Of a stretch of DNA of 36,559 bases, positions 16,893 to 35,008 are shown piece after piece. Origin of the DNA: Candidatus Komeilibacteria bacterium S5_K13. Lineage in GTDB: Bacteria > Patescibacteriota > Patescibacteriia > UBA1558 > S5-K13. Under the pieces are notes generated by a model. The model saw only the letters and a program-made list of their open reading frames with translations, searched no databases and had not been told where the DNA came from. Both the position numbers and the translations under genes were made by a program. Where the stretch lies: the NCBI GenBank assembly GCA_019248485.1, contig JAEHGL010000011.1, forward strand, positions 1-36,559, read 5' to 3'. The stretch's first letter is position 1. Each line of letters begins with the position of its first letter.

Positions 16893-16969
16893 TGGTCGGG
16901 GTGACAGGATTCGAACCTGCGACCTCATGCTCCCAAAGCACGCGCGCTAGCCAACTGCGCCACACCCCG
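16893..16969 (-). tRNA. tRNA-Pro(TGG)
   Basis: 77 nt with encoded CCA (minus strand). Acceptor CGGGGTG pairs with CACCCCG. The anticodon loop TTTGGGA inside the stem CGTGC/GCATG reads UGG. T-loop GGTTCGAATCC is standard. Two truncated copies of its 5' end lie upstream at 17031-17082 and 17382-17433. A terminator follows at 16754-16786. Confidence 0.95.
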
Positions 16970-17030: not shown

Positions 17031-17082
17031 TAGCCCCAGCCAGAGGCTGGTCCGCCTTTGGCGGAAACTGCGCCACACCCCG
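17031..17082 (-). pseudogene. tRNA-Pro 5' fragment split by a 30-bp family A palindrome
   Basis: Minus strand: 17 nt identical to the tRNA-Pro 5' end (CGGGGTGTGGCGCAGTT, 17082-17066), then the 30-bp element (17065-17036), then GGCTA (17035-17031), which is exactly the next five bases of the tRNA. The tRNA homology stops after that. So the element lies in the D-loop between AGTT and GGCTA without loss of tRNA bases. Confidence 0.85.
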
Positions 17083-17086
17083 TAAA

Positions 17087-17344
17087 TTATTTTTTTAATA
17101 GTTCATCTAAAAATTTTCTTCCTTGACCAGACTTTAGAAATTTCTCTCTTTTTATTGCTTCAGATTTAGTATAATATTTTTCAGAATAAATCATAGTAAA
17201 TGGTCCATTTTGTTTTGTCCATTTATTACATCCAGAGTTATGTTCTTTTAGTCTTAAAAAAGTAGCTTTTCCAGTATGTCCTATATATCTTTTGTTATTT
17301 TTAAGACTTTTTAATACATATACATAATATAAATCACTTTTCAT
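17087..17344 (-). CDS. GIY-YIG nuclease domain protein
   Basis: 85 residues, a minimal GIY-YIG domain. YYVYVLKSLKNNKRYIGHTG carries the GIY-like (YVY) and YIG motifs. LRLKEHNSG holds the catalytic Arg, and SEAIKREKFLKSGQGRKFLD the conserved Glu and the C-terminal basic motif. It belongs to the COG2827/YhbQ-like group, which is common in candidate-phyla genomes. It is bracketed by two tRNA-Pro 5' fragments that each carry a family A palindrome (17031-17082, 17382-17433), 4 bp and 37 bp away. That arrangement suggests a mobile or homing unit, but no activity is known. Confidence 0.88.
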   Translation of the reverse strand: MKSDLYYVYVLKSLKNNKRYIGHTGKATFLRLKEHNSGCNKWTKQNGPFTMIYSEKYYTKSEAIKREKFLKSGQGRKFLDELLKK

Positions 17345-17381: not shown

Positions 17382-17433
17382 TAGCCTCAGCCAGAGGCTG
17401 ATCCGCCTTTGGCGGAAACTGCGCCACCCCCCG
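17382..17433 (-). pseudogene. Second tRNA-Pro 5' fragment split by a family A palindrome
   Basis: Minus strand: 17 nt of the tRNA-Pro 5' end with one mismatch (17433-17417), the 30-bp element (17416-17387), then GGCTA (17386-17382). The architecture is identical to the copy at 17031-17082, on the other side of the GIY-YIG gene. The element differs from that copy at two positions (TCAG versus CCAG, and CTGA versus CTGG), which keep the hairpin paired. Confidence 0.85.
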
Positions 17434-22758: not shown

Positions 22759-22820
22759 AATATTTTATTATTTATTTATTAATTATTTTTATAATCTCAT
22801 ATTTTAAGTTAAAAATCAAC

Positions 22821-22898
22821 ATAATAAAAAAACGCTCATTTCTGAGCATTCTACTTCAAAATTCATAATTCAAAACTATAAATTAATTCTGGTACACT
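22821..22898 (-). repeat. Inverted copy of the tRNA-Leu(TAA) 3' flank, without the 32-bp insert
   Basis: On the minus strand it starts GTACCAGAATTAATTTATAG (22898-22879), identical to 31620-31639. It continues through GAATTATGAATTTTG, AAGTAGAATGCTCAGAAATG and a T-run. It matches 31620-31720 except that the 32-bp element there (31659-31690) is absent. The end is a terminator hairpin, AATGCTCA-GAAA-TGAGCGTT then T7, serving the minus-strand idi operon. Confidence 0.9.
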
Positions 22899-22990
22899 GG
22901 CGTGCTCTCGCAACTATGCAGGTGTGGTATCCATGGACTTTTCTAGGATATTTTTGGCATTATAAATTAGGCAGATCGGTCGGGGTTATA
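22899..22990 (-). other. Unexplained, less AT-rich stretch ending in ACCA-like sequence
   Basis: About 90 bp between idi and the tRNA-flank copy with no ORF. On the minus strand it runs from CCCCGACCGATCTGCC to GCGAGAGCACGCCAGT and joins the copied GTACCA. It does not fold as a tRNA (no T-arm consensus). It does not match SRP RNA or tmRNA landmarks I know. It could be a small RNA or a decayed tRNA. Confidence 0.3.
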
Positions 22991-25394: not shown

Positions 25395-25480
25395 TGGTAC
25401 CGGGAAGAGGACTCGAACCTCCACACCACTAGGGTACTTGCTCCTAAGGCAAGCGTGTCTACCAATTCCACCATCCCGGC
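25395..25480 (-). tRNA. tRNA-Leu(TAG)
   Basis: 86 nt with encoded CCA and a long variable arm (TACCCTAGTGGTGTGG). Acceptor GCCGGGA pairs with TCCCGGT (G-T at the first pair). The anticodon loop CTTAGGA in stem TTGC/GCAA reads UAG. D-arm contains TTGGTAGACAC. It is the intact member of a cluster with two 5' fragments upstream and one 3' fragment downstream. Confidence 0.95.
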
Positions 25481-25527: not shown

Positions 25528-25621
25528 GTGTCTACCAATTCTCCGCCTCGGCTCGCTAGGCTCGCCGACGCCCGCTTCGCCATAGCGATAGCGAGGCGAG
25601 CGAGACAGGCACCATCCCGGC
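25528..25621 (-). pseudogene. tRNA-Leu 5' fragment split by a 68-bp palindrome (copy 1)
   Basis: Minus strand: GCCGGGATGGTG (25621-25610) is the tRNA 5' end. Then comes a GC-rich palindromic insert of 68 bp (25609-25542), then GAATTGGTAGACAC (25541-25528). Removing the insert restores the tRNA 5' 26 nt exactly. The 46-nt AT-rich spacer on each side is identical to that upstream of the intact tRNA. The start-to-start distance from the intact tRNA is 73 bp. Confidence 0.9.
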
Positions 25622-25668: not shown

Positions 25669-25753
25669 GTGTCTACCAATTCTCCGCCTCGGCTCGCCGA
25701 CGCCCGCTTCGCCATAGCGATAGCGAGGCGAGCGAGACAGGCACCATCCCGGC
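25669..25753 (-). pseudogene. tRNA-Leu 5' fragment split by a 59-bp palindrome (copy 2)
   Basis: Same design as copy 1: tRNA 5' end (25753-25742), a 59-bp version of the palindrome (25741-25683), then GAATTGGTAGACAC (25682-25669). The insert lacks 9 bp (CTAGGCTCG on the plus strand) found in copy 1. Distance from copy 1 is 141 bp, that is 73 plus the 68-bp insert. Apart from these copies and the intact tRNA's leader, 25481-25901 holds no gene. Confidence 0.9.
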
Positions 25754-31420: not shown

Positions 31421-31452
31421 CTCGCCTTGGCATAGCCTCCGGCGAAGCCAGG
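31421..31452. repeat. 32-bp palindromic element, family D (copy D2)
   Basis: CTCGCCTTGGCATAGCC (31421-31437) then TCCGGCGAAGCCAGG (31438-31452). It has the same length and ends as the copy at 31659-31690. Removing it restores GAATGATG-AATTTC, the ordinary AT-rich spacer. It lies 85 bp upstream of tRNA-Leu(TAA). Confidence 0.75.
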
Positions 31453-31537: not shown

Positions 31538-31625
31538 GCCGTGGTGGCGGAATTGGTAGACGCGCTGGACTTAAAATCCAGTAAATGTATAATTTGTGAG
31601 GGTTCGATTCCCTCCCACGGTACCA
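31538..31625 (+). tRNA. tRNA-Leu(TAA)
   Basis: 88 nt with encoded CCA. Acceptor GCCGTGG pairs with CCACGGT (first pair G-T); the anticodon loop CTTAAAA in stem CTGGA/TCCAG reads UAA; a long variable arm; T-loop GGTTCGATTCC. Flanked on both sides by 32-bp family D elements. Its 3' flank has an inverted copy at 22821-22898. Confidence 0.96.
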
Positions 31626-31658
31626 GAATTAATTTATAGTTTTGAATTATGAATTTTG

Positions 31659-31690
31659 CTCGTCTTGACATGGTTTGCGGCGTAGTCAGG
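31659..31690. repeat. 32-bp palindromic element, family D (copy D3), insertion with known empty site
   Basis: CTCGTCTTGACATGG (31659-31673) then TTTGCGGCGTAGTCAGG (31674-31690). The flanks GAATTTTG and AAGTAGAATGC are contiguous in the copy at 22821-22898. The insertion point reads TG^AA, as for D2. Confidence 0.9.
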
Positions 31691-31721
31691 AAGTAGAATG
31701 CTCAGAAATGGGTGTTTTTTT
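31691..31721 (+). terminator. Terminator of tRNA-Leu(TAA)
   Basis: AATGCTCA-GAAA-TGGGTGTT (31697-31716, with G-T pairs) followed by T. Its duplicate at about 22830-22850 has better pairing. Confidence 0.6.
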
Positions 31722-31727
31722 ATTTTA

Positions 31728-31755
31728 TTGACAAAAATAAGCATTGGTATAAGAT
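31728..31755 (+). promoter_or_regulatory. Promoter of the 133-residue protein gene
   Basis: TTGACA (31728-31733), 16 bp, TAAGAT (31750-31755), 40 bp before the ATG at 31795. Confidence 0.6.
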
Positions 31756-32816: not shown

Positions 32817-32838
32817 TATTGTTATTTACAAAAATATT

Positions 32839-33039
32839 ATGCTAAATCAACAAGAATTAATAAAGTTTATAAGTGAAGCAAACAAAGCTGAATATGCATC
32901 TGGTAATGAAAGCTCACTGATAAATGAAAGCGATAATTCAAAAACAATCATCTATGAAAGAGGTGATTTCAAATTTCACGATAATTATTTTGGCGGTGAA
33001 CCATATGGAGGATATCAGTCTCTGGCTGATAAGTTATAA
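32839..33039 (+). pseudogene. Truncated DUF5680-like gene (copy 1)
   Basis: 66 residues: MLNQQELIKFISEANKAEYA ... YERGDFKFHDNYFGGEPYGG, then an unrelated end (YQSLADKL). Up to PYGG it parallels the damaged copy at 34528-35008, which continues into REVVFHDSKP as expected for the family. So this copy looks cut after about 170 bp. It could still be translated as a short protein. A terminator follows immediately. Confidence 0.6.
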
Positions 33040-33578: not shown

Positions 33579-34390
33579 TGCTTTTGAAAGAAATACAATG
33601 CAAGTCTATAGTCACGAAATCTGGATTACCAGAGGCCGACTTTGTAATAAATCCATATATAGGGTGTTCTCATGGATGTAATTATTGCTATGCAAGGTTT
33701 GTGAAAAAATTTACCAATCATAATAGTGAAGAGTGGGGAGAGTTTGTTGACGTTAAGATAAATGCTCCAGAACTTGCTCAAAAAGAAATAAAAAAAATAA
33801 CAAGCGGAGTAATTGTCATTGGTTCTGTGACAGACCCATATCAAATAGTCGAAAAAGAATTTGAAGTTACAAGAAAAATTCTAGAAAATATTAGTAGCAC
33901 TAGCGCAAGGGTTAATATTCTTACTAAGTCGGATCTTATTTTAAGAGACATAGATCTATTGAAGCAATTTAAAAATCTTGAAATAGCAATTTCAATGTGT
34001 AGCCCCGATGAGAGTATTAAGGAATTGTTTGAAAAAGATTCTCCAGCTATAAAATCAAGGATTAATACACTTTGTGAACTTCATAAAAATAATATAAAAA
34101 CAGTTTTATTTGTATCGCCAATACTGCCAGAGATTACAGATTGGAAAGAAATAGTAAATATTACAAAAGATTTTGTTGATGAGTATTGGTTTGAAAATCT
34201 CAATTTATATTTATCAATAGAAAAAAATGTTTTTGGAGTATTAGAGTCAAAATTTCCACATCTTGTTTCTAAGTATAGAGAGATATATTTTAGTAAAAGT
34301 AGTTATTTCAATGATCTAGAAAATGATATAAAGTTATTTTGCAAAGAAAGTGATATAAAATATGAAATATATTTTCATCATGGAAAGTAA
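33578..34390 (+). CDS. Radical SAM protein, SPL/SplB-like (COG1533)
   Basis: 270 residues from ATG 33578, which overlaps the previous stop. The 4Fe-4S motif is CSHGCNYC (C30, C34, C37) in INPYIGCSHGCNYCYARFVK. VIVIGSVTDPYQIVEKEF and VNILTKSDLILRDIDLLKQF match the spore-photoproduct-lyase-like radical SAM branch. Substrate unknown; relatives without the full SPL C-terminus are widespread and mostly uncharacterised. Coupled with the deaminase, which suggests a shared role in nucleic-acid or nucleotide metabolism. Confidence 0.88.
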   Translation: MLLKEIQCKSIVTKSGLPEADFVINPYIGCSHGCNYCYARFVKKFTNHNSEEWGEFVDVKINAPELAQKEIKKITSGVIVIGSVTDPYQIVEKEFEVTRKILENISSTSARVNILTKSDLILRDIDLLKQFKNLEIAISMCSPDESIKELFEKDSPAIKSRINTLCELHKNNIKTVLFVSPILPEITDWKEIVNITKDFVDEYWFENLNLYLSIEKNVFGVLESKFPHLVSKYREIYFSKSSYFNDLENDIKLFCKESDIKYEIYFHHGK

Positions 34391-34527
34391 GGGGTTAGGG
34401 ATAATAGTTAATTGAATAATAGTTTAATTGGTTAATTGTAAATTTCAGGTTCTAGGTATGTTCGAACACTGAAATTTTTGAGTTCTAGCGTTTGTTAATA
34501 AGTTAATAAATAGAATAATAAAAATAT

Positions 34528-35008
34528 ATGCTAAATCAACAAGAATTAATAAAGTTTATAAGTGAGGCAAATAAGGCTGGATAGGCATCAGGAGATGAGA
34601 GCCCACTAATAAATGAAAATGATAACTCAAAAACAATTATTTATGAAAGAGGTGATTTCAAGTTTCATGATAATTATTTTGGCGGAGAACTATATGGGGG
34701 GGGGGCGAGAGGTGGTTTTTCACGATAGTAAGCCCATTTTTATAATGGTATATTATGGAAGGATAAGTGATAAGAATATTGATAAAAAAATAGTATATTC
34801 ATTTTTGCAAAATGCTTTGAAATTATTTCCTGAAGATAAGCCATTTCGTGGTCCAGAGAAATACGAAGAAATTATTGACGGTAAGAGATTAGAATACAAA
34901 AATAATTGGAATGGTGAGATAGACTATTTTAGTGGAAATGAGACTATATCAGTTGACGGAGTTGAGGTGTATGATGCGAAATATTCTGGAGGGTTGGTGG
35001 ATCAGTAG
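34528..35008 (+). pseudogene. DUF5680-like gene with a stop codon and a poly-G frameshift (copy 2)
   Basis: Starts MLNQQELIKFISEANKAG like copy 1, then an in-frame TAG at 34582-34584 where copy 1 has TAT. Homology continues (FKFHDNYFGGE) to a run of ten G (34696-34705); nine G would keep the frame. After the run the other frame reads REVVFHDSKPIFIMVYYGR, FLQNALKLFPEDKPFRGPEK and SGGLVDQ, the rest of the family domain. A frame from the ATG at 34613 covers this part. Two lesions make it a likely pseudogene; the G run alone could be a sequencing error or phase-variable tract. Confidence 0.75.

Follow-up and report, generated by a model that had tools for sequence, protein, structure and literature searches.

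Free-standing and intronic GIY-YIG homing endonucleases include elements that rebuild the gene they have invaded, as in atp6 of Allomyces. The double-hairpin elements of Allomyces belong to the mobile hairpins of mitochondria. Yeast GC clusters (PMC4478555) and sponge RHEs (PMC2800124) are further mitochondrial hairpins of this kind. REP/RAYT and CGTC-tagged repeats are palindromic, non-coding and dispersed sequences of 20-40 bp that are thought to be non-autonomous mobile DNA, and the CGTC class has no dedicated transposase (PMC3733652, PMC2817692).

Here, we have analyzed a 32-bp unit at positions 31659-31690 of a 36,559-nucleotide stretch of Candidatus Komeilibacteria DNA (the window), together with similar units elsewhere in the source genome (G000, 1.06 Mb, 133 contigs) and in other bacteria. 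Like the REP and CGTC repeats, these units are short, palindromic, non-coding and dispersed; however, they carry no GTAG or CGTC tag, are low in copy number, are concentrated in tRNA fragments and are independent of a Y1 gene. With the mitochondrial hairpins they share the insertion of GC-rich hairpin units in AT-rich genomes, fast diversification and double-hairpin forms, but they are bacterial, lie in tRNA fragments beside a GIY-YIG gene and are not accompanied by target duplication. The adjoining genes are comparable to those of GIY-YIG homing endonucleases in that a small gene is located beside its presumed target, the end of the host gene is duplicated so that this gene remains intact, and no intron is needed, whereas here many tRNA types appear to be targeted, the protein consists of only the catalytic domain (~80 aa) and a hairpin is present in the leftover fragment. 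Integrative elements at tRNA attB sites likewise leave an intact tRNA and a partial tRNA copy at the far end; in contrast, the present elements are ~300 bp in size, have no integrase, use 5' halves and the anticodon loop, and contain a different nuclease fold. Similar to the palindromic elements of Rickettsia (CGTC class, PMC3733652), the units are short palindromes inside genes of a reduced genome, but the Rickettsia elements sit in protein genes and intergenic DNA, and those described here in redundant tRNA copies.

Filled and empty copies of the tRNA-Leu(TAA) spacer

The features of the two related loci are as follows:

31421-31452 (+), sister unit CTCGCCTTGGCATAGCCTCCGGCGAAGCCAGG, 85 bp upstream of tRNA-Leu(TAA), with the same ends and TG-AA flanks
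31538-31625 (+), tRNA-Leu(TAA), intact (ARAGORN; Rfam)
31659-31690 (+), 32-bp unit CTCGTCTTGACATGGTTTGCGGCGTAGTCAGG, filled site between TG and AA, absent from the copy at 22816-22895
31691-31731 (+), remainder of the tRNA-Leu 3' flank with an intrinsic terminator (z -2.9)
22816-22895 (-), second copy, lacking the unit (junction at 22856/22857): last 6 nt of tRNA-Leu(TAA), 3' flank and terminator
22890-22986 (-), 97-nt conserved non-coding sequence ending in GTACCA, with another copy at C69

The unit lies 33 bp from tRNA-Leu(TAA), in the 3' flank of this tRNA. By direct comparison, 31615-31658 (+) and 22900-22857 (-) are identical at 42 of 44 bases (39/39 from GTACCA on), and on the right side 31691-31731 (+) and 22856-22816 (-) agree at 37 of 41. 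Exactly 32 extra bp are present at 31659-31690 between the two matching arms and absent near 22.86 kb, in agreement with what the sequence-only reading had claimed, and its statement that no base is lost or duplicated at the site also holds, as neither loss nor gain is seen in the comparison. The empty junction, which it had placed at 22859/22860, is actually at 22857/22856, three bases away, and the boundary is ambiguous by one base, a G ending both the unit and the left flank. Both copies comprise the last bases of tRNA-Leu(TAA), an AT-rich flank and a terminator; the tRNA-Leu 3' end is thus common to both loci, as had been noted, but the empty copy contains only its last 6 nt (GTACCA). The terminators of the two copies have good folds (z -4.5 and, for 31691-31731, -2.9), so that the similarity between the filled and empty copies is more than that of an AT-rich repeat. 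When the 73-base empty copy was used as a BLAST query against the whole genome, only these two loci were detected (E 2e-14 and 2e-9), and no third copy of comparable strength was found (next match 4e-4).

The proposed search for empty spacers in relatives gave a partial answer: in three genomes of the same family (G001-G003) the syntenic tRNA-Leu(TAA) is followed by a terminator without such a unit, but these spacers could not be aligned with the 31659 spacer, and no orthologous empty site at strain level was found. By itself, the 31659 pair cannot separate insertion from deletion. Insertion is favored because the unit occurs elsewhere and because the orthologous tRNA-Leu(TAA) genes of G001-G003 have no unit downstream.

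A family of units with constant ends

At least five copies of CTCG(C/T)CT(T/C)G(A/G)C...G(C/T)CAGG are present in the source genome (31421 and 31659 in the window, C2:19043-19074, C48:1661-1702 and C24:34527-34568), two of which are 42 bp long with a longer inner stem. All begin with CTCG and end with G(C/T)CAGG, and the flanks close to TG-AA in 5/5, as had been anticipated for copies across the genome. Random ends, which would have spoken against a discrete piece that inserts or excises, were looked for, and the five copies were found to share exact ends; the 32 bp at 31659 are therefore a discrete unit. The constant TG-AA may partly reflect the AT-rich context, the flanks of all five copies being AT-rich words of the GAATTTTGAAT kind. 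The description of the unit as palindromic suits its sisters better than the 31659 copy itself, whose folding energy as DNA is no better than that of shuffled sequences (z -0.08, compared with -0.98 for 31421 and -1.98 for a 42-nt sister). However, the 6-bp outer stem shows a compensatory change, from CTTGGC/GCCAGG at 31421 to CTTGAC/GTCAGG at 31659.

Three of the five copies are remote from tRNA genes, and no GIY-YIG gene was found beside 31659. The 31659 unit resembles a pool of GC-rich hairpins of ~20-80 bp, mostly C/TCCGCC...C(A/G)GG, which is concentrated at tRNA genes, and it is tied to the hairpins of the tRNA fragments described below by the general motif CGCCTTGGC...CAGG only. On the basis of this resemblance and of the 33-bp distance to a tRNA, it is tentatively placed in the tRNA-fragment/GIY-YIG system, and its link to the nuclease is putative. 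Among 23 TCCGCC-N3-GGCGGA sites, nine are within 350 bp of a tRNA (0.5 expected, p 7e-10) and 14 are far from tRNAs. A palindromic stretch within an open reading frame at L032:1049-1082, tccgccgacgccaaggctttggcgga, recalls the Rickettsia palindromic elements.

Hairpins in split tRNA copies

Two further tRNA loci of the window carry hairpin units within partial copies of the neighboring tRNA:

16893-16969 (-), tRNA-Pro(TGG), intact
17036-17065 (-), double-hairpin unit of 30 bp that follows nt 17 of an incomplete tRNA-Pro(TGG), whose nt 1-17 are at 17066-17082
17087-17344 (-), small GIY-YIG gene (85 aa; Pfam PF01541, E 1.8e-15) between two tRNA-Pro fragments, on the strand of the tRNA
17387-17416 (-), unit of the same type in a second tRNA-Pro fragment, on the opposite side of the GIY-YIG gene
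25395-25480 (-), tRNA-Leu(TAG), intact (ARAGORN), built-in empty site for both fragments below
25542-25609 (-), 68-bp hairpin unit that separates nt 12 from nt 13 in an incomplete tRNA-Leu(TAG)
25610-25621 and 25528-25541 (-), nt 1-12 and nt 13-26, respectively, of that partial tRNA-Leu(TAG)
25683-25741 (-), 59-bp hairpin unit at the same nt 12/13 position of a second, tandem tRNA-Leu(TAG) fragment

For each of these hairpin-bearing copies, the intact neighboring tRNA provides a built-in empty site, and the filled/empty pairs at 17.0, 17.4, 25.6 and 25.7 kb are much stronger than the 31659 pair. In the tRNA fragments the polarity of the change is clear: the tRNA represents the older state, and the hairpins were therefore inserted. 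Apart from tRNA, an Rfam scan of the window revealed no known RNA and no intron, including no group I intron ribozyme.

Among the 35 tRNAs of the source genome, 13 have a same-strand self-fragment (at least 12 identical nt) no more than 1 kb away. The expected number, derived from 1138 comparisons with flanks from other contigs, is 0.43, and the opposite strand yielded one. Most of these fragments start with nt 1 and contain a hairpin of 30-81 bp, after which the tRNA sequence resumes. The hairpin is located at nt 12/13 in Arg(TCT) (twice), Leu(TAG) (twice), Leu(CAA), Lys (twice) and Arg(GCG), at 15/16 in Glu, at 17/18 in Val(GAC) and Pro, and, by reading, at 7/8 and 8/9. In relatives, self-fragments are also present, at 11/33 tRNAs in G002 (0.6 expected), 19/39 in G006 (2.05) and 7/42 in G014 (1.7). 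The hairpin-bearing fragments need no Y1 transposase in the same genome.

Several other loci have more complex structures. An old copy of tRNA-Leu(CAA) in G006 (L158:680-1070) has inserts at 12/13, 23/24, 31/32 and 66/67 and has kept its own acceptor stem, with an intact tRNA-Leu between its halves. At C69 (L030 rev 1350-2025), an old tRNA-Arg(TCG) is split at 37/38, its halves flanking a GIY-YIG gene plus a different intact tRNA-Arg; a ~65-bp hairpin is present on both sides, and the replacement tRNA thus lies inside the gene replaced. In addition, tRNA-Trp, Tyr, Gly(TCC) and Thr(TGT/GGT) were not found in the source assembly, perhaps due to repeats at tRNA loci that break contigs.

Small GIY-YIG genes beside tRNAs

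In five genomes, 17 of 25 small GIY-YIG ORFs are no more than 251 bp from a tRNA, all 17 on the strand of the tRNA. An independent scan of species genomes with one small GIY-YIG protein as the query yielded 36 loci, 24 of which are tRNA-adjacent and again on the tRNA's strand (24/24); these loci are from Patescibacteria, Bacteroidota (Chryseobacterium, Epilithonimonas, Marixanthotalea and Cyclobacteriaceae) and Ignavibacteria. Partial tRNA copies flank a same-strand small GIY-YIG gene in at least three phyla. The recurring layout is a tRNA 5' fragment with a hairpin, the GIY-YIG gene and an intact tRNA, or the mirror arrangement with a 3' fragment. In total, 41 small GIY-YIG loci adjoin a tRNA, in keeping with a gene placed at its presumed target beside a restored host gene. 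On the far side of the ORF, a tRNA fragment split by an insert is present in 25 of the 41 (0.99 expected when a wrong tRNA is used for comparison). Across the insert, the tRNA sequence continues exactly or with microhomology in 21/25 and with the loss of 1-2 bases in 4/25; microhomology of 1-3 nt occurs at 11/25 junctions. Almost all inserts (23/24) have folds with z values of -2 or below. The distance of the insert from the ORF-side junction is 4-14 nt in the 5' type, with a median of 7. In the loci read, nothing but the GIY-YIG ORF separates the fragment from the tRNA, and no integrase is present. The catalytic residues (Y, YxG, R, H and E) are invariant in nine tRNA-adjacent proteins.

In G010, which lacks small GIY-YIG genes, 0/34 tRNAs have fragments. 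The count of such genes agrees in rank with fragment frequency, over only six genomes, and G014 lies off the line. Clades specific for particular tRNAs were considered and found to be unsupported (28 changes on the tree vs 29.9 when shuffled, 21/200 shuffles being as low), so that homing specific to isoacceptors is not supported. Since the GIY-YIG tree is not sorted by tRNA type, any target recognition should be broad or easily changed. Two arrangements of another kind were observed: a GIY-YIG frame between ~130-bp direct repeats away from tRNAs (C54, L034 rev 1340-1890), and, in Ignavibacteria (L235:1276-2111), a tandem duplication of the GIY-YIG gene together with a tRNA-Asp 3' fragment and its hairpin, a recent copy event.

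Rearranged 3' flanks and the 22.86-kb locus

The empty copy is neither a plain empty target nor a second tRNA gene, but consists of the 3' flank of tRNA-Leu(TAA) joined to the repeated 97-bp sequence. Among the loci read, the other copy of this sequence is at C69 ~33936-34021 (-) (L043:431-516; 86 bp at 89.5%). There too, GTACCA is the point of fusion with the 3' flank of a tRNA, in this case tRNA-Lys(CTT); 235 bp of this flank occur twice, at 99.6% identity, and the two duplicates enclose a 204-codon open frame. The same GTACCA fusion at C69 suggests that the empty copy arose by a recurrent type of rearrangement at tRNA 3' ends. With regard to the 97-bp sequence itself, Rfam detected no known RNA, its folding is no better than that of shuffles, and a tRNA-like nature was rejected, with 66/100 shuffles scoring as well. 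Exact scans of viral contigs gave 0 matches for 20 nt of this sequence and 8 matches with unrelated flanks for 15 nt.

Several other tRNAs of different type also share sequence after CCA, for example Pro and Val(TAC) 77 bp at 96%, Pro and Thr 49 bp at 100%, and Glu and Arg(GCG) 48 bp at 96%. At C13:16893, C49:3341, C43:5975, C57:4229 and C35:25815, 45-77 bp directly after CCA are common; this stretch contains a TTCGACTC...GGTCTTCGACC module resembling a hairpin, which looks as though a repeat had been inserted immediately after CCA. A 181-nt direct repeat (32831-33011 and 34520-34700, 87%) covers the starts of two short reading frames.

Proposed origin of the units and alternative explanations

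At a probability of about 0.58, we consider the 31659 unit to be a short non-coding insertion unit belonging to a pool of hairpins at tRNAs that is tied to small GIY-YIG elements. The 32 bp would have entered the 3' flank of tRNA-Leu(TAA) as one piece between TG and AA, with no target duplication or loss. Small GIY-YIG elements may break into tRNA genes at the D-arm, anticodon loop or T-arm and supply a replacement for the displaced tRNA end, such that the tRNA stays intact, while the leftover fragment, which is redundant and perhaps still a cleavage site, would receive the interrupting hairpin. We propose that this fragment, as it keeps the native flank and tRNA end, would still be cut unless interrupted. 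Solo fragments, and units near tRNAs such as that at 31659, would be remnants or side-products of GIY-YIG traffic, and the 22.86-kb copy may be a tRNA 3' flank relocated by a similar rearrangement, either prior to entry of the unit or from a unit-free lineage. The insertion mechanism proposed here for the hairpin units is likewise putative. A more far-reaching version, in which minimal mobile elements (small GIY-YIG gene, hairpin and tRNA piece) invade tRNA genes in many bacteria, substitute for the displaced end and, as an obligatory step of their cycle, put a hairpin into the leftover fragment at its second cleavage position, with the 32-bp unit as a member of their hairpin pool, is possible, but we would sooner expect it to fail than to hold.

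An alternative that needs no dedicated mobilization is that the hairpins are filler DNA, a break in a tRNA copy (e.g., by the GIY-YIG nuclease) being repaired by template-switch copying of a palindrome from another place. The variation of inserts between loci, the short microhomologies at 11/25 junctions and the spacing of 5'-type inserts from the element junction, always 4-14 nt, are consistent with this possibility, which we nevertheless regard as unlikely, considering that the CTCG family has constant ends in five unrelated places and that 21/25 tRNA splits without base loss are tidier than most end-joining repair. It is somewhat more improbable that the units are REP-like, non-autonomous elements which a Y1/HUH transposase (RAYT or IS200-like TnpA) moves in trans in the form of single-stranded hairpins, and that they are frequent at tRNAs because they survive in redundant sequence. 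Clean insertion without target duplication would fit single-strand transposition, units also occur away from tRNAs, and the source genome has two Y1 genes, one of which (207 aa, at C101) is RAYT-like. However, G006 (estimated 100% complete) has no PF01797 match and yet the most hairpin-bearing tRNA fragments, and G010 has a Y1 gene and no such fragments. No CTCG...GYCAGG unit directly flanks the C101 RAYT gene, around which (L110) only a diverged relative ~600 bp upstream was found. Instead of GTAG/CGTC tags, the unit ends are CTCG/CAGG or TCCGCC/C(A/G)GG; only five exact-type copies were found, a minimum, and with the 23 TCCGCC-N3-GGCGGA sites this is not the high copy number of REP/RAYT repeats. 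With regard to the fixed 4-5-base target beside the left end of IS200/IS605-derived MITEs, the picture is mixed: the flanks are always TG-AA in the CTCG type, but no common tetranucleotide is seen at the tRNA insertions.

Simple loss of 32 bp from the 22.86-kb copy, with a unit that is not mobile, appears very unlikely. Two sequences cannot polarize a change and deletions between short repeats are common; on the other hand, the 32 bp share exact ends with four other copies, no repeat beyond one G flanks the stretch supposed to be deleted, and relatives have no unit downstream of the orthologous tRNA. Finally, the hairpin-bearing copies might be real genes whose hairpins are spliced from the RNA in an intron-like manner, as position 37/38 is used once, in Arg(TCG), and the old tRNA-Leu of G006 is otherwise complete despite several inserts. 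This idea is hardly credible and was rejected, since an intact copy of the same tRNA adjoins every case read; besides, most copies are truncated, the positions are mainly in the D-arm, and no tRNA splicing endonuclease is known from bacteria.

Implications

Mobile palindromes and homing endonucleases that restore the invaded gene are each already known, but the open-access literature searched contained no description of the two combined at tRNA genes and of a leftover fragment that carries a hairpin. For small bacterial palindromes, proof of movement is usually missing because the empty site is hard to recognize. The intact tRNA beside each broken copy is an empty site known to the base, available at dozens of loci in several phyla, which makes the insertion mode of palindromic repeats directly testable. 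These loci also suggest that tiny nuclease elements target tRNA genes and exchange their ends, a process that, if confirmed, would affect the evolution and annotation of tRNA genes in Patescibacteria and Bacteroidota.
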